Of a stretch of 31,046 nt of DNA, positions 11,115-24,081 are shown piece after piece. The stretch's first letter is position 1, and the number at the start of each line of letters is the position of its first letter. Both the position numbers and the translations under genes were made by a program. This stretch comes from a virus, in the IMG/VR virus record IMGVR_UViG_3300028809_000049, positions 1 through 31,046 of that record; one strand, written 5' to 3'. The notes beneath the pieces were generated by a model. That model ran no database searches and was not told where the DNA came from. It worked only from the letters and a program-made list of their open reading frames with translations.

Positions 11115-11154
11115 CCGGAATGATCAAGAACGGGGCGAACCTACCGTCACCCGC
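11115..11154 (+). promoter_or_regulatory. Promoter-like element, copy 1, apparently for a leaderless transcript
   Basis: The element consists of CCGGAATGATCA (11115-11126), 15 bp containing CGGGG, then TACCGTC (11142-11148), with the TAnnnT hexamer ending 7 nt before ATG 11155. The same arrangement with identical spacings recurs at 19133-19172. No usable ribosome site lies before ATG 11155. A -10 hexamer 7 nt upstream of a start codon is typical of leaderless actinobacterial transcripts. The -35 region does not match TTGACA, so an activator or non-standard recognition is possible. Confidence 0.6.
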
Positions 11155-11649
11155 ATGACCGACCTCCTCACACCCCCGACCACGGCCGCCGGCCCGCAGC
11201 CCGTCATGGCCGCCGCCCCGCCCGCCGCACGCGACTTCAGCAAGAAGCGCAAGCGCCTCACCTTCACCATCGAACCCGACACCTTCGAAGCCGCACCCGT
11301 GCTCCCCGGCGACGTCTTCGCCGAGTTCGTCACCCTCTACAACGACCGGGCCGACGTCGACACCTACCAGGAGCAGCACGACCTCCTGAAGCAGGCCCTC
11401 GCACTCGCCCTTCTCCCGGACTCCTGGCAGAGGTTCGCCGACCGGCTGAAGGACAAAGACAGCCCGATCGACGACGACCAGATGGCCGACGTCGTCCTCT
11501 GGCTGCTGGAGGAGTACGGGCTGCGCCCTACACAGCCGTCGCAGCCCTCATCGGATGGGCCTGCGAACCCGGCATCTGGCACGCCCTCGACGGAGAGTAC
11601 GCCAGCCGAGGAGTCGACTTCGCAGCCCTCCCAGCCGATCGCTTCCTGA
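11155..11649 (+). CDS. Tail assembly chaperone, short form (gpG-like)
   Basis: A 164-residue product read without frameshifting. Chaperones of this type bind the tape measure protein during tail assembly and are absent from the finished virion. Core features are KKRKRLTFTIEPDTFEAAPV, FAEFVTLYNDRADVDTYQEQ and LLPDSWQRFADRLKDKDSPI, followed by a Pro/Ser/Thr-rich tail (RPTQPSQPSSDGPANP onward) typical of the unshifted C-terminus. ATG 11155 has no convincing ribosome site, which fits leaderless translation from the element at 11115-11154. Position directly before the tape measure gene supports the call. Confidence 0.85.
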   Translation: MTDLLTPPTTAAGPQPVMAAAPPAARDFSKKRKRLTFTIEPDTFEAAPVLPGDVFAEFVTLYNDRADVDTYQEQHDLLKQALALALLPDSWQRFADRLKDKDSPIDDDQMADVVLWLLEEYGLRPTQPSQPSSDGPANPASGTPSTESTPAEESTSQPSQPIAS

Positions 11650-11879
11650 ACGCGATCTACTTCGAGATGCTCCAGCGGCTGATCGTCCACGACGGGCAAT
11701 CCGAGGAACACGCGCGCGCCAAGTTCGATGCGGACCTCGGTGTTTCGGCATGGGCCGTACCCGGACGTGAACGCCGCACACCAGAGCCCGTGGACGACGG
11801 CGCGCCCTGGTGGTGGCGAGGCGCCGAAGACGCCAGCCAGTCGTTCCTCGCATCGATGGGGGTGAGCCTCGGTGGCTGA
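11155..11879 (+). CDS. Tail assembly chaperone, -1 frameshift product (gpGT-like)
   Basis: The -1 frame downstream of the short form is open and clearly coding. From 11529 it reads YTAVAALIGWACEPGIWHAL, then DFAALPADRFLNAIYFEMLQ and APWWWRGAEDASQSFLASMG, stopping at 11877-11879 inside the start of the tape measure gene. The second half has no plausible start of its own near the junction. A -1 slip at the CCCT around 11526-11529 joins the frames as ...GLRP-YTAV..., giving about 241 residues. The G/GT frameshift is widely conserved in long-tailed phages. The exact slip codon is inferred. Confidence 0.8.
11524..11530 (+). other. Probable -1 ribosomal frameshift site
   Basis: In the zero frame the codons are CGC CCT ACA. 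The Pro-tRNA reading CCT (11527-11529) could slip back one base onto CCC (11526-11528), after which translation continues with TAC. No perfect X-XXY-YYZ heptamer is present, so slippage would rest on a single codon. Confidence 0.5.
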
Positions 11880-14800
11880 CCTGATCGGCACCGCAACCAT
11901 CCGCGTCGATATGCCCACCACGGCAGCGGTGCGGCAGGTCCGGCGGTTCGCCTCACAAAGTGACACCCAGCTCCGCGGCCTGCAGAACCGGATCAGCACG
12001 GTCGCGCGGGAGATGCGCAGCATCGGGGACCGGACGATCGGCGTGACGGTAGACGACCGCACCCGCCCCGGCGCGACGTCCGTACGCGCGGCCGTCACCG
12101 ACCTACAACGCCTCGGCCCGGTCCGGATCCCCGTCCAGATCACCGACGGCACCCGCCGCGGCGCCACCGCCGTGCAGACGACCGTTGCGCGTCTGCAACG
12201 GCTCGGCCCGGTCAAGATCCCCGTCACGATCGACGACCAGACCCGGGCCAGCGCAACCGCGACCACTACCGCCCTCGCACGGCTCCGCGCGCTCGGCCCG
12301 GTCCGGATCCCGGTCCAGGTCGTTGACGGAACCCGCCGCGGCGTCCGGGCCGTGCAGACCGCGGTGGCGCAGCTCCGGCGCCTCAGCCCCGTCCGGATCA
12401 GCGCGGACATCGACGTCGACGCAGCCGCCACCACCACGGCGTCCGCGGCCTTCCGCGACCTCCAGCAGGCTGCCCGCGGCACCGCCCGCGCGCTGGGCAC
12501 GCTGGCCACCCGGGCGACGACGGCGACCGCCGCGCTTGTCGCGCTGGGCGCCGCCGCCCGCACGCTGCGCGGCGACATGGACGACCTCGACGGCAGTATC
12601 CGCCGCACCGGCGCCGGCATGACCGGGCTCCGCGGCAGGCTCGGCACCGTCAGCACCTCCGCGTCCAGCGCGGGCAGCGCCATGGACAAGCTGAAGACAG
12701 CGGCGCTGCTGCTGTCGCCTGCGCTGGTGCCGATCGCGGCGCAGGCCATCCACATCCTGCCCCTCGCGGGGGCGTTCGGCGCCGCGGCGGGCGCGGTCGC
12801 GGCGTTCGGTGTGGCCGTGGCCGGGCAGATCGGCTCCCTGTCCGAGGCGGCCGACGCGGAGAAGAAGGCCGCCGACGCGGCGGACAAGTACGGGGCCCGC
12901 AGTAAGCAGGCGGCCGAGGCGCAGGCCGCGCACCAGAAGGTTCTCGCCGGGCTGCCTCCGGCGACGCGTAAGGCTGCCGCGGGGCTGACGATCCTGCGGG
13001 ACCAGTACCGGTCGTGGTCGGACGCGCTGGCGGCGGACACGATGCCGGTGGTCACCAAGAGTTTCGCGGTGTTCGGGGCGGTGCTGCCGAAGCTGACGCC
13101 GGTTGTGAAGGGCGCCAGTGGTGAGCTGAGCCGGTTCATGACGATCCTGGCCGGTGGGGTGCAGACCCGCGGCTTCGACCGGGTGATGGACCGGTTCGCA
13201 CAGTTCTCGTCGGGGGTCCTCAAGCGCGCGAACGACGGCCTGATCCACTTCATGCGGACCCTCGACACCGGCAAAGCGTCCGGGGCGTTCGCGCAGGTGA
13301 TGGAGTACGCGCGGGAGAACGGGCCCCTTGTGCGGGACGTCCTGTCGAACGTCAGCCAGGCGCTGGGGAACCTGCTGGAGGCAGCCTCGAACGTCGGGCC
13401 CGGCCTGCTGACGGTGGTCAACGCGCTGGCCGGTATCGTCGCCGCCCTCCCACCGGGCGCGATCACGGTGTTCCTCCAGGTCGCCATCGCGATCAAGGCG
13501 GTGCGACTGGCGGCGGCCGGGTTCGCTGCGGTGGGCCCGGCGGTCACCGCGTTCGCGACGGCGATCGGCGCGATGCGCGCCGCCGCGGCGGGCGCCTCGG
13601 GTGTCCTGCCGCGGCTGGCGGCGGGGTTCATGGCCCTGTCCCGCGCGGCCCGGATCGCGGTCGCGGGCACCGGCATCGGCCTGCTCGTGATCGCGCTCAC
13701 GGAGATGGCGCAGATGGGCCGCCAGGCCCCGCCCGACGTCGACAAGCTGACGGGGTCGCTGGCCCGGCTGGGCAAGACCGGAAAGGTCGCGGGCGAGGCG
13801 TCGAAGGCGTTCGGCGCGGACCTGGGTGGCTTGTACGGCAAGGTGCAGGCGCTGACGGACCCGGGCACCGCGGACAAGGTGCAGCAGTGGGTGGTCAGCC
13901 TGGGCGGGCTCGCCGACTGGGACTCCACCCCGGTGAAGGAGGCGAAGGAGAACCTCGACGCGATCGACGAGGCACTGGCGGGGCTGGTGAAGAACGGGCA
14001 GGCGGACCTTGCTGCGGCGGCGTTGAAGCGGCTGACTGCGGAGTACGGCAAGGGCGGCCGGGACACCAAGCAGTTCACGAAGGAACTCGACGGGTACAAG
14101 GCCGCGATCGAGGACGCCAAGTTCGAGCAGGAGCTGGCGGCCGAGGCGATGGGCCTGTTCGGTCAGCAGGCGCAGTCGACGTCGGCGAAGCTGGCGGAGC
14201 AGAAGGCCAGCGCGGATGGGCTGCGGCAGGCGATCCAGGCCCTCAACGACGTGAACCGATCTGCGCTCGGGGGGATGATCGGGTTCGAGGCGTCCGTCGA
14301 CGCCGCCGCGAAGGCAGCGAAGGAGAACGCCGGCTCTCTCCGCATGATCAACGGCGAGCTGGACCTGAACAGCCCGAAGGCGCAGGCTGCCGCGACCGCC
14401 CTGAACGATCTGGCGGCGAAGACAGACGAGGCCGCCGGCGCGGCGCGGGAGAGCGGCTCGTCCTGGGCCACGGTCAACGGCATCTACGACCGCGGTCGGC
14501 AGAAGCTCGTCGAGAGCGCCATGCAGATGGGCCTCACCCGCAAGGAGGCGAAGGCCCTCGCCGATCAGATCCTCAAAACGCCGGACAAGACGGCCCGCCT
14601 GAAGGGCGACATCCAGGACCTGGACAAGAAGGTCGACAAGGCGAAGAAGGACATCAAGTCCATCCCGCCGTCGAAGGTGTCCCAGATGAAGGGCACCATC
14701 TCCGACCTTGAGAAGAAGATCAAGGACGCCAAGGCGCGGATCAAGTCCGTGCCCGCCTCGAAGCGGTCCGATCTCCGCGCCAACATCAACGACCTGGAAC

Positions 14801-16350
14801 GCAAGGTCCGCTCGGCAAAGGCGGCGCTGTCCAGCATCCGCAGCCGGTCGGTCACGATCACTGCGTTCGTCCAGTACAAGGGCCAGTCGATCGCGAAGGT
14901 GTCCGCCGGGCGCCTCGCTGCCGGTGGCCGCGTGAAGCGGTACGCGGGCGGCGGGCCGATCCAGTCGTTCCCGGACGGCGGCTACGTGCAGGGGCCCGGC
15001 ACGCCGACGTCGGACAGTGTCCTCGCCCTTATGGGGTCGGGCGCGACCGCGCGTGTCGCGGACACCGAGTACGTCGTCCGCGGCGCCGCGGTCCGTCACT
15101 ACGGGGTGCGGCTGTTCGACGCGCTGAACGCGATGCAAGTGCCCGCGCCGAAGCTGGCCGGTGGGGGCATGGTCGGGGCGGGTGCAGATGCGGGTGCGGG
15201 TCTGGCGGCCGGTCTGGGTGGTGCGGCCCGCGGGGTGGAGGCTGCGGCCCGCGCGTTGGCCGGGGCGGTGACGCGGGGGGTGCGGGAGGAGCTGCAGATC
15301 TCCTCGCCGTCCCGGGCGATGAAGGCCCTGGCCAAGGACGTCGGGAAGGGATTCATCCAGGGGTTGACGGACTCCCGCGACAAGATCAAGGCGGTATCGA
15401 AGGATCTCGCCGCGGATGTGCGGGCCGCGTTCTCCGGCCGTAAAGAGTCCAACCTCATCAAGATGATCAACCGGGAGACGAGCGAACTCCTGACCGCGGC
15501 GAAGAAACGGGACGCCGTTGAGAAGAAGATCAGCGACGCGAAGAAGTTCGCCACCGACACCGCTGCCCGCGCCCGCGACACCGGCAGCCTCGCCCGCATC
15601 GTCAGCCCGGAGTTCGCTGCGCCGCGAATGGTGGAGCAGCGCATGAAGTCGGCGCTGTCGCAGATCAAAGCCTTCACGGCGAACGTGGAGAAGCTGCGGA
15701 AGAAGGGCGTCTCCAAGGCCCTCATGCGGCAGATTCTGGAGCTGGGCCCGGAGCAGGGCGGCGAGTTCGCCAAGGCCCTGGCCGGTGCGGACGCGGCCAC
15801 CATCAAGCGCTACAACAAGCTGCAATCGGACCTCGACAAGCAGTCGAAGAAGCTCGGCAACAAGGGCGCCGACATGCTCTACGACTCCGGGAAGAAGGCC
15901 GGGGAGGGCTTCCTCACCGGGCTGAAGGCGCAGCAGAAGCAGATCGAGAAGCTCATGTTGGACATCGCGAAGGGCATGCAGAAGGCCATCAGGAAGGCCC
16001 TCGGGATCAAGAGCCCCAGCCGGGTCATGTGGAACGTCGGCACCCTCAGCATGGACGGTCTGCGCGCCGGCCTCCTCCAGCAGGTGCCCGCCGTGCAGCG
16101 GGTGATGGACCGGGTGGCCGGGGCCGTTGCCACCGGCACGCCCGCCAGCCTCCCGCCGCCCGCCCACGGCGGAATGCCGAGGGGGCGGGGTCAGCAGCGG
16201 CCGGCGGGTGCTGGGGGGCCGCGTGAGCTGCACGTCCATGTCCACAACACCGGCGTGATCGGCTCGCAGTTCGAGGTGGAGAACTGGCTCGCCCGCTCCC
16301 TCGACCACCTCAGCCGCACCGGACGCCTCCCCGCCCCGAGGGCCGCCTGA
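11872..16350 (+). CDS. Tape measure protein
   Basis: This 1492-residue protein sets tail length and is injected with the genome. GTG 11872 overlaps the end of the frameshifted chaperone. Five roughly 30-residue repeats cover residues 54-203 (PVRIPVQITDGTRRG-type units). Hydrophobic segments lie at about 279-325, 515-577 and 594-608 and may insert into the membrane during injection. Lys/Asp-rich coiled-coil repeats span about 907-993. A Gly-rich hinge (GGGPIQSFPDGGYVQGPGTP) precedes EYVVRGAAVRHYGVRLFDAL near residue 1075. Two SPSR motifs (about 1146 and 1380) are typical of tape measures. At about 0.15 nm per residue the tail would be roughly 200 nm; that is an estimate. Confidence 0.93.
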   Translation: MADLIGTATIRVDMPTTAAVRQVRRFASQSDTQLRGLQNRISTVAREMRSIGDRTIGVTVDDRTRPGATSVRAAVTDLQRLGPVRIPVQITDGTRRGATAVQTTVARLQRLGPVKIPVTIDDQTRASATATTTALARLRALGPVRIPVQVVDGTRRGVRAVQTAVAQLRRLSPVRISADIDVDAAATTTASAAFRDLQQAARGTARALGTLATRATTATAALVALGAAARTLRGDMDDLDGSIRRTGAGMTGLRGRLGTVSTSASSAGSAMDKLKTAALLLSPALVPIAAQAIHILPLAGAFGAAAGAVAAFGVAVAGQIGSLSEAADAEKKAADAADKYGARSKQAAEAQAAHQKVLAGLPPATRKAAAGLTILRDQYRSWSDALAADTMPVVTKSFAVFGAVLPKLTPVVKGASGELSRFMTILAGGVQTRGFDRVMDRFAQFSSGVLKRANDGLIHFMRTLDTGKASGAFAQVMEYARENGPLVRDVLSNVSQALGNLLEAASNVGPGLLTVVNALAGIVAALPPGAITVFLQVAIAIKAVRLAAAGFAAVGPAVTAFATAIGAMRAAAAGASGVLPRLAAGFMALSRAARIAVAGTGIGLLVIALTEMAQMGRQAPPDVDKLTGSLARLGKTGKVAGEASKAFGADLGGLYGKVQALTDPGTADKVQQWVVSLGGLADWDSTPVKEAKENLDAIDEALAGLVKNGQADLAAAALKRLTAEYGKGGRDTKQFTKELDGYKAAIEDAKFEQELAAEAMGLFGQQAQSTSAKLAEQKASADGLRQAIQALNDVNRSALGGMIGFEASVDAAAKAAKENAGSLRMINGELDLNSPKAQAAATALNDLAAKTDEAAGAARESGSSWATVNGIYDRGRQKLVESAMQMGLTRKEAKALADQILKTPDKTARLKGDIQDLDKKVDKAKKDIKSIPPSKVSQMKGTISDLEKKIKDAKARIKSVPASKRSDLRANINDLERKVRSAKAALSSIRSRSVTITAFVQYKGQSIAKVSAGRLAAGGRVKRYAGGGPIQSFPDGGYVQGPGTPTSDSVLALMGSGATARVADTEYVVRGAAVRHYGVRLFDALNAMQVPAPKLAGGGMVGAGADAGAGLAAGLGGAARGVEAAARALAGAVTRGVREELQISSPSRAMKALAKDVGKGFIQGLTDSRDKIKAVSKDLAADVRAAFSGRKESNLIKMINRETSELLTAAKKRDAVEKKISDAKKFATDTAARARDTGSLARIVSPEFAAPRMVEQRMKSALSQIKAFTANVEKLRKKGVSKALMRQILELGPEQGGEFAKALAGADAATIKRYNKLQSDLDKQSKKLGNKGADMLYDSGKKAGEGFLTGLKAQQKQIEKLMLDIAKGMQKAIRKALGIKSPSRVMWNVGTLSMDGLRAGLLQQVPAVQRVMDRVAGAVATGTPASLPPPAHGGMPRGRGQQRPAGAGGPRELHVHVHNTGVIGSQFEVENWLARSLDHLSRTGRLPAPRAA
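12031..12480 (+). repeat. Five tandem 90-bp (30-residue) repeats in the tape measure gene
   Basis: Units begin at 12031, 12121, 12211, 12301 and 12391, exactly 90 bases apart. Units 2-4 share VRIPVQ/VKIPVT, a DGTRRG or DDQTRA turn and a closing RLxxLGP. Unit 1 begins RTIGVTVDDRTRPG and unit 5 (VRISADIDVDAAA) is degenerate. Each unit reads as a beta strand, turn and helix. Confidence 0.85.
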
Positions 16351-19127
16351 TGCCGCTGACAGAAGATCTCCAAGACGACTTCGACGACGGTGTCGTCGAC
16401 ACCGGCAAGTGGCCGTCGAACTACAACTCCGGCGGAGGCGGCGCCCCCAGTGAGGTCGGCGGCCGGGCCCGCGTGCCGTGCGACACCGGCTACGCCGCGT
16501 TCGCCAGCGACAACATCTACACCCTCGCAGACTCCCACGTCCTGGTGCAGATGTTCCCCCCGGCCGCGGGTGGCGCAGCATCGGAGGCGTGGGCGCAGCT
16601 CCTCGTCGCGTCGGCCACGGCAGGCACCGACCTGATCTTCGAGGTCGACGCCCTCGACGGACTGCTGACGATGGCGGTCCGGACCGGCTACTTCGACCCC
16701 GGCGCGGTCTCCATCGCCTACGACCCGGTCCAGCACGCGTGGCTGCGGGTCTCAGAGGCGGGCGGGACGCTGACGTGGGCGACGAGCCCGAACGGATCGA
16801 CGTGGACCACCCGCCGCACCACCACCTCCCCGGCGTGGGTGGCGGACACGGACCTGGAACTCCAGCTCATCACCCACCGCGACTCGGGGACACCCGACTA
16901 TGCGGAGTTCGACAACTTCAACGTCACCCCCTCCACCTCCGGCGCGGTGTTCGCCGACCTCACCGACACTTTCGATGACAGCGTGGTGGACCCGGTCAAG
17001 TGGCCCGACACCTACAACTCCGGGCCCGGCGGACTGCCCGTCGAGACCGGCGGACGCGCGCGGGTGCCGTGCGACACCGGGTTCGCGGCGCTGGCGTCGG
17101 CGGACATCTACCGCCTGGAGGGCTCGCACGCCCTCGTGCAGGCGTTCCCCCCGCCCGGCACCGGGATGCTGGACGCGTACTGCCAGCTCCTCATCCTGTC
17201 CAGTGTGGTCGGCACACAGATCGTCTTCGAGATCGACGCCATCACCCGCCTGCTGATGATGACCGTCCACGTCAACTACACCGACGAGGGCGGCCGCACC
17301 ATCCCCTACGACCCGGCCGCGCACGCCTGGCTCCGCGTCCGCGAGGACGCGGGCATCCTGTACTGGGAGACCTCACCGGACGGCCGGACCTGGACCGCCC
17401 AGCACTCCGACACCGCCCCCGCGTGGGTGTCCGACAACGACCTCCAGGTCCAGCTCCTCGCGCACGGCTCCCCCGTCGTCACCGGCTCGCCCACGGGTGT
17501 GTACGCGGAGTTCGACAACTTCAACATCCGGCCCGAACTGGCCGGCGGGTACACCGTCGCAGTGGACTGGAACGGTGACGGCGACTTCACCGGCCCGCAC
17601 GAGGACGTCACCCAGGATGTCCTGTCGAGCGGCCCGGTCACCTTCCAGTACGGCCGCGACCAGGCGCGCGCACTGTCCCCGCCCCGCGTGGGCTCGATCG
17701 GCTTCACCCTGTGCAACACCGACGGCGTGTTCTCCCCAGAAAACCCGGGCAGCCCCATCAGCGCGGACGTCTCCCCCGCCGCCCCCATCAAGGTGGAGGA
17801 GACGATCGGCGACACCCTCTATCCCCTCGTCCGCGGACGCATCGACACCCTGGAGGTCAGCACCGGCCGCGGCCGGCTCTCGGCGGCCATCACCGCCTTC
17901 GACGACCTGTCCCTGCTACGCGGCACGAACATCAGCACCGGCCTCTACCAGGCGCAGCGCACCGGCACTCTCATCGGGATCATCCTCGACGAGGTCGGCT
18001 GGACCGGGCCCCGCGACCTCGACCTCGGCGCCACCCACGTCCCGTGGTGGTGGGCCCACAACCAGGACGCCTTCACCCTCCTGGGCGAGCTGTTGCGGTC
18101 GGAGGGTCCGCCGGCCATCGCCTACGTCGCCCCTGACGGCACGTTCATCTTCCGCGACCGCCACCACCGCATCCAGGACGCGGCGTCCCTCACCAGCCAG
18201 GCGACGTTCGCCGCGGGGGGCCGGGACTGCGACGATCTGCCCGAGGGCGGGCTGACCTACCTCGACGGCCTCAGCTACGAGAGCGGCTGGCGCGACATCG
18301 TCAACAGCATCGTGTTCCCTGTGGAGGAGCGGCGACCGGAGGCGGATCTGTCGGTGGTGTGGGAGTCGGGCACGGTGATCTCCCTCGGGCTGGGCGAGTC
18401 GGCGACCGTGCAGGTGCAGGCGAGTGATCCGTTCCGGGATGCGCAGCCCCTCGTCGACGGCACGGACATCGTCTACACCGGCACCGGCCTCCCCATCCCG
18501 CAACTCTCGCGGACGTCCGGGCAGGCGGTCACCATCACCCTCACCGCAGCCGGAGGCACCGTCGACATCTCCCGGCTGCAACTGCGGGCGAGGTCGGTGC
18601 CGGTCGCGCGGACGGTGGATGTGGTGTCCGCGGACTCCACGTCGGTGGCCCGCCACGGCGAGCGCGCCTACCAGGACGACGCGCCGTGGGTGGGCCAGCA
18701 CGATGCGCTGGCGGTGGCGCGGATGCTGCTGGCGGCGTATGCGGAGCGGCGGCCGACGGTGCAGATGCGGATCGTGTCATCGGACCTGGCGCACCATCTT
18801 CAGATCGTGGGGCGCCGGATCTCCGACCTGATCAGGATCCGCAGCGGCGCGCTCGGCATGGACAGCACGTTCCACATCGAGACGATCGAGCACACGCTGG
18901 CGCGGATGGCGGGCGACGACACCTGCCCGGGACCCGTGCACTATGCGACGTTCGGGTGCGAGCGGGCGGGCGTGGTGGTCCCGGACAATCCGTTCACATT
19001 CGACAAGTCGGGGGCGGGGTTCGACGACGGCGTGTTCGACCCGACCGCGGCGGACAACCCGGACACCGTGTTCATCTTCGACCACGCCACCCAGGGGCAG
19101 TTCGACCTCGGCCAGTTCGGCACCTGA
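16350..19127 (+). CDS. Minor tail protein: duplicated lectin-like domain plus hub-like region
   Basis: A 925-residue protein; ATG 16350 overlaps the tape measure stop (TGATG). Residues about 3-195 and 198-395 are two copies of one beta-rich domain. Each starts with an FDD...VVD...KWP..YNSG stretch, contains GGRARVPCDTG(Y/F)AA and ends with YAEFDNFN(V/I). The pattern resembles LamG/concanavalin-like domains and may bind host-surface sugar. The remainder (YTVAVDWNGDGDFTGPHEDV, VGSIGFTLCNTDGVFSPENP, LVRGRIDTLEV) matches actinophage minor tail proteins of the hub/baseplate type. It lies where Dit/Tal proteins are encoded and may combine both roles; that is inference. Confidence 0.85.
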   Translation: MPLTEDLQDDFDDGVVDTGKWPSNYNSGGGGAPSEVGGRARVPCDTGYAAFASDNIYTLADSHVLVQMFPPAAGGAASEAWAQLLVASATAGTDLIFEVDALDGLLTMAVRTGYFDPGAVSIAYDPVQHAWLRVSEAGGTLTWATSPNGSTWTTRRTTTSPAWVADTDLELQLITHRDSGTPDYAEFDNFNVTPSTSGAVFADLTDTFDDSVVDPVKWPDTYNSGPGGLPVETGGRARVPCDTGFAALASADIYRLEGSHALVQAFPPPGTGMLDAYCQLLILSSVVGTQIVFEIDAITRLLMMTVHVNYTDEGGRTIPYDPAAHAWLRVREDAGILYWETSPDGRTWTAQHSDTAPAWVSDNDLQVQLLAHGSPVVTGSPTGVYAEFDNFNIRPELAGGYTVAVDWNGDGDFTGPHEDVTQDVLSSGPVTFQYGRDQARALSPPRVGSIGFTLCNTDGVFSPENPGSPISADVSPAAPIKVEETIGDTLYPLVRGRIDTLEVSTGRGRLSAAITAFDDLSLLRGTNISTGLYQAQRTGTLIGIILDEVGWTGPRDLDLGATHVPWWWAHNQDAFTLLGELLRSEGPPAIAYVAPDGTFIFRDRHHRIQDAASLTSQATFAAGGRDCDDLPEGGLTYLDGLSYESGWRDIVNSIVFPVEERRPEADLSVVWESGTVISLGLGESATVQVQASDPFRDAQPLVDGTDIVYTGTGLPIPQLSRTSGQAVTITLTAAGGTVDISRLQLRARSVPVARTVDVVSADSTSVARHGERAYQDDAPWVGQHDALAVARMLLAAYAERRPTVQMRIVSSDLAHHLQIVGRRISDLIRIRSGALGMDSTFHIETIEHTLARMAGDDTCPGPVHYATFGCERAGVVVPDNPFTFDKSGAGFDDGVFDPTAADNPDTVFIFDHATQGQFDLGQFGT

Positions 19128-19132
19128 CCACC

Positions 19133-19172
19133 CCGGAATGATCATGCGCGGGGGGTGCCTACCGTCCCTCTC
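19133..19172 (+). promoter_or_regulatory. Promoter-like element, copy 2, apparently for a leaderless transcript
   Basis: CCGGAATGATCA (19133-19144), 15 bp containing CGGGG, and TACCGTC (19160-19166) end 7 nt before ATG 19173, with the same spacings as copy 1 at 11115-11154. About 34 of 43 aligned bases including the ATG are identical, although the flanking genes are unrelated. No standard ribosome site precedes ATG 19173. Confidence 0.6.
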
Positions 19173-19514
19173 ATGGCCCAACTCCTCACCACCCGAGCAC
19201 GAGCCCGGGTCAACCACGGCAGGTGGATCGCCGACTGCCCCCGCCGCTACTGCGCCAACGCCGTCAAGCTCGCGCCGCGGCAGGGCACGTTCCACTGCGC
19301 CGGCGAGGGCGGCTGCCAGATGGTCGCCCCGGTGGAGTGGCCGACGGACGCGGAGGAGATCTGGGAGGTGCTGCTGCAGCGGCCGGTACCGTCCACCCGG
19401 AACTGGTACCCGCCCGGCCATGTCGAGGCGGTCCGCATGCGCCTGCCGCACGGACAGTCCCCCGCCGACCTGCTGGAGGAAGCTCGCCGCTACGAGGCCG
19501 AGGAGGCGGGGTAG
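19173..19514 (+). CDS. Small zinc-ribbon-like protein in the tail module
   Basis: A 113-residue protein from ATG 19173; upstream in-frame starts were rejected because the promoter-like element ends just before this ATG. Residues about 16-45 contain ADCPRRYC and HCAGEGGC, two Cys pairs that could hold one zinc. The C-terminal part has VEWPTDAEEIWEVLLQRPVP, STRNWYPPGH and LPHGQSPADLLEEA. I recognise this as a recurrent actinophage gene lying among tail genes, but its function is unknown to me. A DNA- or RNA-binding regulator or an assembly factor would both fit. Confidence 0.75.
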   Translation: MAQLLTTRARARVNHGRWIADCPRRYCANAVKLAPRQGTFHCAGEGGCQMVAPVEWPTDAEEIWEVLLQRPVPSTRNWYPPGHVEAVRMRLPHGQSPADLLEEARRYEAEEAG

Positions 19515-22011: not shown

Positions 22012-22220
22012 GCAGCCCCCTGGAGGGACGGATCCGTCACCTCGCCCGCGAGGAAGCCACCGCAGTCCTGGCCGAGCAGCCGGGCGCGGGCGGTGAGACG
22101 GCCGAGCTGAAGGCGCAGGTCGCCGCGCTGACGGCCCGGGTCGAGGAACTCGCGACGGCACTCGCCGCGGCGCCACCGCCGAAGCGGACCACCCGCAGGA
22201 GCGCGGAGACCGGGGAGTGA
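22008..22220 (+). CDS. Small coiled-coil protein after the holin
   Basis: ATG 22008 overlaps the holin stop (ATGA); 70 residues. The middle (ETAELKAQVAALTARVEELATAL) is a clear heptad coiled coil, flanked by a helical N-terminus and a basic C-terminal tail (PPKRTTRRS). No membrane segment or catalytic motif is present. Its position in the lysis cassette suggests a lysis modulator or second lysis protein; that is inference. Its stop overlaps the start of the glycosyltransferase gene, so all four genes from the endolysin onward form one coupled unit. Confidence 0.72.
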   Translation: MSSPLEGRIRHLAREEATAVLAEQPGAGGETAELKAQVAALTARVEELATALAAAPPPKRTTRRSAETGE

Positions 22221-23269
22221 AGGTCCACGTCTACCCCTCCGACAACTTCGGCTGCGGCTCCTTCCGGATGCGCTGGCCCGGCGAAGCGTGCGCCGCAGCC
22301 GGGCACGACGTCCAGGTCGTCGCGCCTGCGGACCGGCGGCTGAAGGCCATCGTCAAGCACGGCGACGTCGTCGACGTCCTCGGCGTCGACGACGTCGACG
22401 TGATCGTGCTGCAGCGGGTCACCCACATCAACATGGCCCAAGCCGTCGCGATCCTGCGCGCGAAGGGCATCACGGTCGTGGTGGACGTGGACGACGACCT
22501 CTCCTCCATCCACCCCTCCAACCCAGCCTGGTCCGTCCACCGGCCCGGGACCGGCCCGCACTCCTGGCACAACCTCGCGCTCGCGTGCCGGAACGCGTCG
22601 CTGGTGACGGTGTCCACCCCGGCACTGCTGGACGTGTACGCCCGCCACGGCCGCGGGCACGTGCTGCCGAACTACCTGCCGGACATGTACTACGGGCTGC
22701 CGCGTACGGACTCGGATGTGGTGGGCTGGCCCGGCAGCTTCCACTCCCATCCGAACGACCCGGAGGTGGTGGGCGGGGCGGTCGCGCGCCTCGTCGAGGA
22801 GGGCGCCCAGTTCGTGATGCGCGGCGACCCGACTGGCGCTGGCAGCGCGTTCGGCCTGCCGGGGGATCCGGTGGGCGGGGCGGTGTCGGTGGAGGAGTGG
22901 CCGGCGGCGGTGGCGGAACTGGGGGTGGGGATCGCGCCGCTGGCGGACACCCGCTTCAACGCGGCCAAGTCCTGGTTGAAGCCGTTGGAGATGTGTGCGG
23001 TGGGGGTGCCGTGGGTGGCGTCTCCGCGGGTGGAGTACCGGCGGCTGCACGCCCTGGGCGCGGGGGTGTTGGCGGACCGGCCGCGGACTTGGTACCGGGA
23101 GGTGAAGCGGCTGCGTGAGTCGCCGTCGTTGCGGGCGGAGTTGTCGGAGGCGGGGCGGGTGGTCGCGGACGGGCTGCGGCTGCGTGATCACGCGTGGAGG
23201 TGGATGGCTGCGTGGGAGCAGGCCGTGGAGGTGGACCGGGCCGGGCAACGGGCCGCGGTCCCGGCCTAG
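22217..23269 (+). CDS. Glycosyltransferase (GT-B type, group 1-like)
   Basis: A 350-residue protein from GTG 22217, overlapping the previous stop. It looks like a GT-B glycosyltransferase. The N-terminal Rossmann-like half opens KVHVYPSDNFGCGSFRMRWP and contains VIVLQRVTH, VVVDVDDDLSSIHP (about residues 89-100) and TVSTPALLDVYARHG. The C-terminal half has GIAPLADTRFNAAKSWLKPL, EMCAVGVPWVAS and a helical end, the usual donor-sugar-binding layout with the conserved K and E. Phage-encoded enzymes of this kind can glycosylate virion proteins or modify the host surface. Sitting with tail and lysis genes, it is more likely a virion-modifying enzyme, but the acceptor is unknown. Confidence 0.82.
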   Translation: MKVHVYPSDNFGCGSFRMRWPGEACAAAGHDVQVVAPADRRLKAIVKHGDVVDVLGVDDVDVIVLQRVTHINMAQAVAILRAKGITVVVDVDDDLSSIHPSNPAWSVHRPGTGPHSWHNLALACRNASLVTVSTPALLDVYARHGRGHVLPNYLPDMYYGLPRTDSDVVGWPGSFHSHPNDPEVVGGAVARLVEEGAQFVMRGDPTGAGSAFGLPGDPVGGAVSVEEWPAAVAELGVGIAPLADTRFNAAKSWLKPLEMCAVGVPWVASPRVEYRRLHALGAGVLADRPRTWYREVKRLRESPSLRAELSEAGRVVADGLRLRDHAWRWMAAWEQAVEVDRAGQRAAVPA

Positions 23270-23419: not shown

Positions 23420-23815
23420 TCAGGCCGCGGACTGGGGTAGCGGGGTGGCGGCGATCGGCTGCTCGCGCACGTCACGGATCCACGACATACCGCACGACAG
23501 GCACAGCTCGTGCGGGTCCGTGTACACCAGCTCGGTCGACGTGCACAGCGGGCACTTCGCACGCGTACGGACCCGACCGAGTTGCTTGCGCTGGTAGGTG
23601 GTGGTTCCGGCCCAGTAGCCCTCCGCGGTGTGGAGCATGGCCCAGGCGAGGCACTGGATACGGGACGGGCAGGTACGGCACCAGCGCTCAGCGGCGGTCG
23701 CGGCGTCCTGGTCGGTTTCGACGTCGGGGATGAAGTCGAAGTCCTGGGCGGTGGCACAGGGCGCATTCCGCTGCCAGGCGACGTCGTCGGCGGAGAAGAA
23801 GTCGATGGTCTCCAC
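23420..23815 (-). CDS. WhiB-like iron-sulfur protein with C-terminal zinc ribbon
   Basis: GTG (complement of 23813-23815), with GCGAGGG 5 nt upstream, gives 131 residues. The N-terminal half has the WhiB pattern: C20, then C46-x2-C49-x5-C55 (WCRTCPSRIQC), the four ligands expected for a [4Fe-4S] cluster, and the turn motif GYWAGTT (residues 67-73). WhiB-like proteins are actinobacterial regulators that bind the principal sigma factor. Unusually, residues 86-110 carry a second metal site, CPLC...CLSC (C88, C91, C105, C108), like a zinc ribbon, where cellular WhiB proteins usually have a short basic tail. It lies in a leftward cluster with an HTH gene 14 nt upstream. Family call is strong; the regulon is unknown. 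Confidence 0.85.
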   Translation of the reverse strand: METIDFFSADDVAWQRNAPCATAQDFDFIPDVETDQDAATAAERWCRTCPSRIQCLAWAMLHTAEGYWAGTTTYQRKQLGRVRTRAKCPLCTSTELVYTDPHELCLSCGMSWIRDVREQPIAATPLPQSAA

Positions 23816-23829
23816 AACAGCCCTCGCTT

Positions 23830-24081
23830 TCAGGGGCAGGGGGTGCCGTCGGCGACCGACCACACCACGCCGCCGTGCGCACCCAGACACCGCCGGATCC
23901 GGCCCGCCGCCTGCAGCCGCTTACACGACAGGAACACGGCGTCCCGCCCACACCCGGCAGCCTGCGCGAGATCGCTGCGGGACGCGACGCCTTGGCCGAT
24001 GAGCTGGTAAATCGCCTCGTCTCGGGCAGCGACTTCAGGGTCTCTGGGGCGGCCGGGACGGCGGGCAGTCGTCTGCTGCAT
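23830..24081 (-). CDS. Small HTH (winged-helix-like) DNA-binding protein
   Basis: ATG (complement of 24079-24081) with GCGAGGG upstream; 83 residues. The basic N-terminus (QQTTARRPGRPRDPEVAARD) is followed by a helix-turn-helix: AIYQLIGQGVASRSDLAQAA, CGRDAVFLSCKRLQAAGRI, then a short beta wing (VVWSVADGTPCP). The layout resembles small winged-helix regulators. It is the first gene of the leftward cluster that includes the WhiB-like gene, so it may control that operon and the divergent gene at 24217. Confidence 0.72.
   Translation of the reverse strand: MQQTTARRPGRPRDPEVAARDEAIYQLIGQGVASRSDLAQAAGCGRDAVFLSCKRLQAAGRIRRCLGAHGGVVWSVADGTPCP

Follow-up and report, generated by a model that had tools for sequence, protein, structure and literature searches.

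Within a 31,046-nucleotide stretch of viral DNA (IMG/VR record IMGVR_UViG_3300028809_000049, hereafter the window), the same short element stands immediately before the start codons of two genes of the tail region, and the question is what this element does there and what reads it. A first-pass annotation, made without database searches, had described two copies with fixed spacings ahead of the ATGs at 11155 and 19173, and this held exactly as described: CCGGAATGATCA-N15-TACCGTC-N6-ATG occurs at 11115, before a tail chaperone gene, and at 19133, before a zinc-ribbon gene. Its claim that the genes downstream are unrelated also held, the downstream gene families being mutually unrelated. The element was drawn slightly too narrowly, as CC at −40/−39, ATG or TTC at −29 to −27 and C at −1 are also part of it. 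Its components in the window are as follows.

11115-11128, + strand: upstream box of P3 (−35 region), CCGGAATGATCAAG, at −40 to −27 of the predicted start (sequence, IMG/VR conservation)
11142-11148, + strand: −10 element of P3, TACCGTC (sequence, conservation profile)
11155-11649, + strand: tail assembly chaperone gene (ORF list), with a predicted leaderless mRNA starting at 11155
19133-19146, + strand: upstream box of P4, CCGGAATGATCATG (sequence, IMG/VR conservation)
19160-19166, + strand: −10 element of P4, TACCGTC (sequence, conservation)
19173-19514, + strand: zinc-ribbon-like gene of unknown function (translation, alignment), with a predicted leaderless mRNA starting at 19173

The name of the chaperone rests on its position before the tape-measure gene and on weak tblastn homology to annotated tail assembly chaperones, and that of the zinc-ribbon gene on sequence inspection only; its product has no Pfam or PHROG match. 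At up to three mismatches P3 and P4 are the sole two-part matches in the window, and the reversed pattern gives 0 matches there. Searched alone with two mismatches, the ten-base box is uninformative (11 matches in the window against 11.4 expected), and it is the two-part pattern with its fixed spacing that constitutes the informative unit. The window begins inside the portal gene, and two further promoters, P1 and P2, therefore fall outside it.

Conservation in uncultured Streptomyces phages

The first-pass annotation proposed a search of related phages for the motif with fixed spacing; this was run, and the motif proved to be conserved in uncultured Streptomyces phages. In IMG/VR, 38 stretches contain an exact match to the 17-base pattern, with an ATG 5–6 nt past TACCGTC in 36 of the 38, and overall about 30 uncultured phages and prophages of Streptomyces share the motif at its fixed spacing, without exception on the late strand. 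The refined consensus reads CCGGAAYGATC(ATG/TTC)-N13-TACCGTC-N5/6-ATG, and allowing the gap to vary from 8 to 19 added one clear member, L050, with a gap longer by one base and its ATG one base nearer. Since the IMG/VR set had been chosen by the motif itself, a second set was assembled by protein similarity to the chaperone and zinc-ribbon proteins, independently of the motif. In the closer relatives selected in this manner the first base of the motif lies 40 (sometimes 39) bases before the ATG, and the result is therefore independent of the search pattern.

Among closer relatives the two boxes are separated by 13 bases (14 in L050 and L076), the accepted variants being T/C at −34 and ATG/TTC at −29 to −27, and the 35 distinct upstream regions give a mean of 1.39 bits per position for the core versus 0.34 for the flank, six sequences offset by one base notwithstanding. 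The motif is mostly lost in more distant relatives, with single degenerate copies in G031 and G032. A scan of 24 phage records at up to three mismatches found 2–4 sites in each, all on one strand, and the reversed-pattern control on the same 24 records returned 0 matches. In cultured phages blastn gave no convincing match to the motif, only chance ones of 17–20 bases, nor were close relatives of the chaperone or zinc-ribbon protein found.

Host chromosomes were searched likewise. At up to one mismatch the motif is present in only five of 394 Streptomyces genomes (G024, G025, G066, G150 and G302), in each case within prophages or satellite-like elements, G302 and G024 holding prophages of this phage type; the ordinary host genes of the 394 genomes contain no copies, and the reversed pattern is found in none of them. 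A general Streptomyces promoter class was rejected on these counts.

Conservation also extends past the ATG into the codons of both unrelated gene families (window 11155-11170 and 19173-19188, and related loci), with C at +6, A at +8, C at +10 and T at +11 in 33–34 of 35 regions, posing the question of whether a downstream promoter signal or a leaderless translation signal resides there.

Probable late promoters and their predicted start sites

Whole records reveal a late map running from a TerS-like gene through P1 (NAD-epimerase and sugar genes), TerL, P2 (portal, protease, capsid), P3 (chaperone, tape measure) and P4 (zinc ribbon, minor tail proteins) to, in some phages, P5 (a glycosyltransferase with a GTG start). 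Many P1 copies are weaker variants that end in CACCCTG, and the head operon has TACCCTC/TACCCTG variants. The first-pass assignment of a TAnnnT −10 held but was too loose, the −10 at leaderless tail genes being a nearly invariant TACCGTC, and its restriction to tail messages needs widening, as sugar-gene cassettes and the head operon, whose message has a leader with a Shine-Dalgarno, are also under the promoter. In some phages an inverted repeat lies directly upstream of the motif, in the arrangement of a terminator followed by a promoter.

Two features of this region deserve separate mention. The cassette of epimerase, nucleotidyltransferase, glycosyltransferase and methyltransferase-like genes under the late promoter, between the TerS-like gene and TerL (L251 1637-6714 in G007, with an equivalent in all relatives; also window 22217-23269), raises the possibility of virion or host-surface glycosylation; a copy of the epimerase considered as a host gene was rejected as such, since it belongs to the phage cassette. 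The TerS-like family has had its N-terminal DNA-binding part swapped, a cysteine-rich domain versus HTH (L288 7439-7906 versus L238 14589-15128), with the C-terminal part kept.

Streptomyces promoters carry TANNNT at −10 (PMC4895711), and in S. coelicolor leaderless starts make up about 21% of the primary sites (PMC4895711). The criterion for a leaderless promoter, a TANNNT −10 that places +1 at the A of ATG or GTG, is met, with TACCGT ending 7 (sometimes 6) nt before the ATG. Not met is that of a standard HrdB/sigma70 −35 (TTGACA-like, NTGACC, about 17 bp from the −10), AATGAT/GGAAYGATC occupying its place, and the earlier claim that the −35 is not TTGACA-like held in all sites. The ECF sigma criterion (GGAAC, 16–18 nt to a CGTC-type −10) is not met either, GGAAY and CGTC being 23 nt apart.

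The P2 sites offer an indirect view of the start site. They have the same boxes and spacing, but the portal start codon lies 21–34 nt further down behind a Shine-Dalgarno. At the position matching the leaderless A there is no start codon, and nevertheless A is found in 12 of 16 sites and G in 2 (A/G in 14/16), with C at −1 in 15 of 16. Such a CA initiator (C at −1, A at +1), kept where it has no coding role as a start codon, is therefore conserved for its own sake, and coincides with the ATG in P3 and P4. It indirectly supports the view that transcripts of the leaderless genes begin at the ATG, which remains an inference from sequence alone, with no transcript data.

The first-pass proposal of a phage-specific late promoter class for leaderless messages is thus supported, with the corrections given above, by comparative evidence, because the position is conserved, only the late strand is used, the downstream genes are unrelated and ordinary host genes lack the motif. 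That the motif is the late promoter of these phages is very likely, with start sites inferred and no 5' ends measured. In the mechanism that we propose, the element would serve a clade of temperate Streptomyces phages as their late promoter, at which host RNA polymerase would use TACCGTC as its −10, and the box CCGGAAYGATCWTS at −40 to −27 would stand in for the normal −35 and be read by a phage-encoded activator. Transcription would start at the CA step just past the −10, seven bases after TACCGT, so that in the epimerase, chaperone and zinc-ribbon genes +1 would fall on the A of the start codon, yielding leaderless mRNAs, and the same +1 at the head operon would yield a 21–34 nt leader with a Shine-Dalgarno. 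One activator would in this way switch on the head, tail and sugar-modification operons together. A late promoter class is hereby defined in phages for which no close cultured relative was found, and it offers a tight system for studying leaderless translation of virion genes.

A candidate activator

For the upstream box, the first-pass annotation had left a choice between a phage activator and a modified polymerase. The former is more likely: the viral records yielded no Sigma70_r2 or Sigma70_r4 protein present family-wide, and a search for a single-subunit RNA polymerase found none, albeit without a positive control. A phage sigma factor as regulator was rejected for lack of a family-wide candidate. 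The likeliest activator would be a conserved two-gene operon, located in the window as follows.

23420-23815, − strand: WhiB-like protein with an added C-terminal zinc ribbon (PF02467 1.6e-10, cluster cysteines, predicted fold); inferred candidate late activator
23830-24081, − strand: small putative winged-helix protein with an AT-hook-like RRPGRPRDP (family HMM); inferred candidate DNA-reading partner

The two genes are 14 nt apart in the window and usually 9–14 nt apart across genomes. The first product meets the criteria of the WhiB family (PF02467, four cluster cysteines, a G[VI]WGG-like turn), with a PF02467 match above cut-off, invariant C20, C46, C49 and C55, and a GYW(G/A)GT turn; the added zinc ribbon is CxxC..CxxC, and the predicted fold matches that of WhiB bound to sigma region 4 (Foldseek, with modest E-values, best 0.009). 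In all examined motif-bearing phage genomes that cover the region, its gene converges on the end of the late region. The winged-helix protein matches its family HMM in 16/16 motif-bearing phage genomes examined, with diverged homologs elsewhere in relatives; its assignment was made by eye, with only sub-threshold Pfam matches. In relatives G027, G028 and G030 a WhiB-like gene occupies the same position, and the motif is missing. WhiB presence alone was rejected as a predictor of the motif, as motif-less relatives have the gene too.

In the proposed scheme the AT-hook winged-helix and WhiB-like proteins would act as WhiA and WhiB do jointly on the main sigma factor. WhiA/WhiB- and WhiB7-dependent actinobacterial promoters share with the present case a WhiB-like protein with sigma region 4, a TANNNT −10, a box overlapping the −35 and a candidate DNA-binding partner; they differ in that here the phage encodes the proteins, a zinc ribbon has been added and the place of WhiA is taken by a small winged-helix partner. 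The phage motif itself differs from the WhiA or WhiB7 motif. PafBC-dependent promoters (sigma adaptation, PMC11804915) likewise combine an activator and the housekeeping polymerase with a good −10 and a special upstream box replacing the −35, but with another box and protein family, and in DNA repair rather than phage late genes. We regard the identification of the pair as the activator as a proposition that could fall either way, its identity being inferred and neither the interaction nor sigma region 4 binding shown. Functions of phage WhiB proteins are described as largely enigmatic in a survey (PMC8612146), and no paper linking phage WhiB to late promoters was found in the literature searched; the proposed role, if true, would give one phage WhiB protein a concrete, testable job. 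The early region of many of these phages encodes another WhiB-like protein, which is very diverse and in some cases has a long C-terminal extension (G006 70031-70717; G004 44719-46001, joined, late strand up).

Satellite-like elements and rival readings

All five motif-bearing host genomes hold another kind of element bearing the motif. It contains integrase, excisionase-like and replication genes and an HTH-type TerS-like gene, and a zero-mismatch motif precedes a leaderless gene for an HTH protein of about 270–300 aa, followed in G024, G066 and G150 by a tape-measure gene. The tape measures are 45–57% identical to those of the phages over about 740–1170 residues; for the TerS-like gene, G066 and G025 show about 50% identity to phage G026. 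Portal, capsid and TerL searches in the elements gave no match; a capsid homolog is absent from G025, G066 and G150, whose only WhiB proteins are distant ones of the host. No close WhiB-like homolog was found in the satellites, and the winged-helix protein was not convincingly found in any of them by family HMM. Both a satellite and a helper-type prophage are present only in G024 and G302. One strain with both is Streptomyces sp. A012304, whose prophage, on contig NZ_BQUN01000038, has three sites and the two candidate activator genes. The criterion for a PICI-like satellite (integrase, replication and terS genes; no portal, capsid or TerL) is met, with the TerS name weakly supported by weak fold matches and gene order.

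We infer that these elements are satellites using the late promoter of a helper, with mobilisation not shown and ends not delimited. As they carry the motif without the activator, a helper-supplied activator is predicted: their late genes stand behind this promoter too, and expression of the elements would be confined to the lytic growth of a helper phage. P2 Ogr and the delta protein of satellite P4 provide a parallel, in which a phage activator serves several late operons and satellite promoters answer to the activator of the helper; there the host phylum, promoter and proteins are other, and no activator belonging to the satellites here has been recognised. PICIs and SaPIs that encode a TerS of their own (PMC10690885) are alike in integrase, replication genes, a TerS-like gene and absence of capsid genes; what sets the present elements apart is a tape-measure gene and often also one for FtsK-like transfer. 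The satellites described from Streptomyces supply their capsids themselves (PMC10690885); among these phage satellites, MulchRoom and MiniFlayer (PMC10690885) encode terminase, portal and capsid, whereas the present elements lack portal, capsid and TerL.

Of the rival readings, the first holds that the motif is recognised by a regulator or alternative sigma factor of the host, and that phages and satellites merely exploit this. In its favor, the satellites of G025, G066 and G150 keep a perfect motif with no helper in the same genome, and the upstream box starts like an ECF −35 (GGAAC/T). It is unlikely, however, as the lack of ordinary-host-gene copies in 394 genomes would leave such a regulator without host targets, and the 23 bases from GGAAY to CGTC are beyond ECF spacing, ordinarily about 16–18. 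A second reading, also unlikely, makes the TerS-like gene just upstream of P1 the activator. It is the sole gene family common to all phages and satellites, and its HTH form resembles Mor and sigma region 4, with weak Mor and Sigma70_r4 matches; against this, the DNA motif stays unchanged across a swap of the protein's N-terminal domain, which is cysteine-rich in most phages but an HTH in G026 and the satellites, and fold and gene order favor a small terminase. The last, that the element is a packaging, recombination or repressor site which happens to precede genes, can appeal to its very high conservation and its presence in satellites that are presumably packaged, but is very unlikely given the exact start-codon phasing in at least four unrelated gene families, the initiator retained where the start codon is absent, the several copies per genome across late operons (which do not fit packaging) and the upstream inverted repeat that in some phages fits a terminator followed by a promoter.

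The preferred reading, joining a late promoter, a phage activator and its use by satellites, is likely as a whole: motif, spacing, position, strand, regulon and satellite copies are shown, and start sites, activator identity and helper dependence are inferred. A bolder single claim, which we lean slightly against, is that the winged-helix/WhiB pair steers the RNA polymerase of the host to a dedicated class of late promoters, most of them leaderless, and that an undescribed satellite family (TerS-like plus tape measure) captured the promoter to time its late genes to the lytic cycle of the helper. The motif provides a sequence tag by which helper-satellite pairs in Streptomyces may be found.

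Why a satellite should carry its own tape measure is an open puzzle; such loci lie beside the TerS-like gene in L313 (14127-16925, minus strand), L315 (21383 onward into L316) and G024 C88 (65778-68477). No paper on an AICE with a tape measure was found in the literature searched. Genes typically found on conjugative elements of actinomycetes, one for FtsK/SpoIIIE-like transfer and others SpdB/GntR-like, occur with or within the elements of L313, L315/L316, L291 and L292 (G066, G150, G025 and G024), and with such a transfer gene in several of them it is possible that the elements are mixed.
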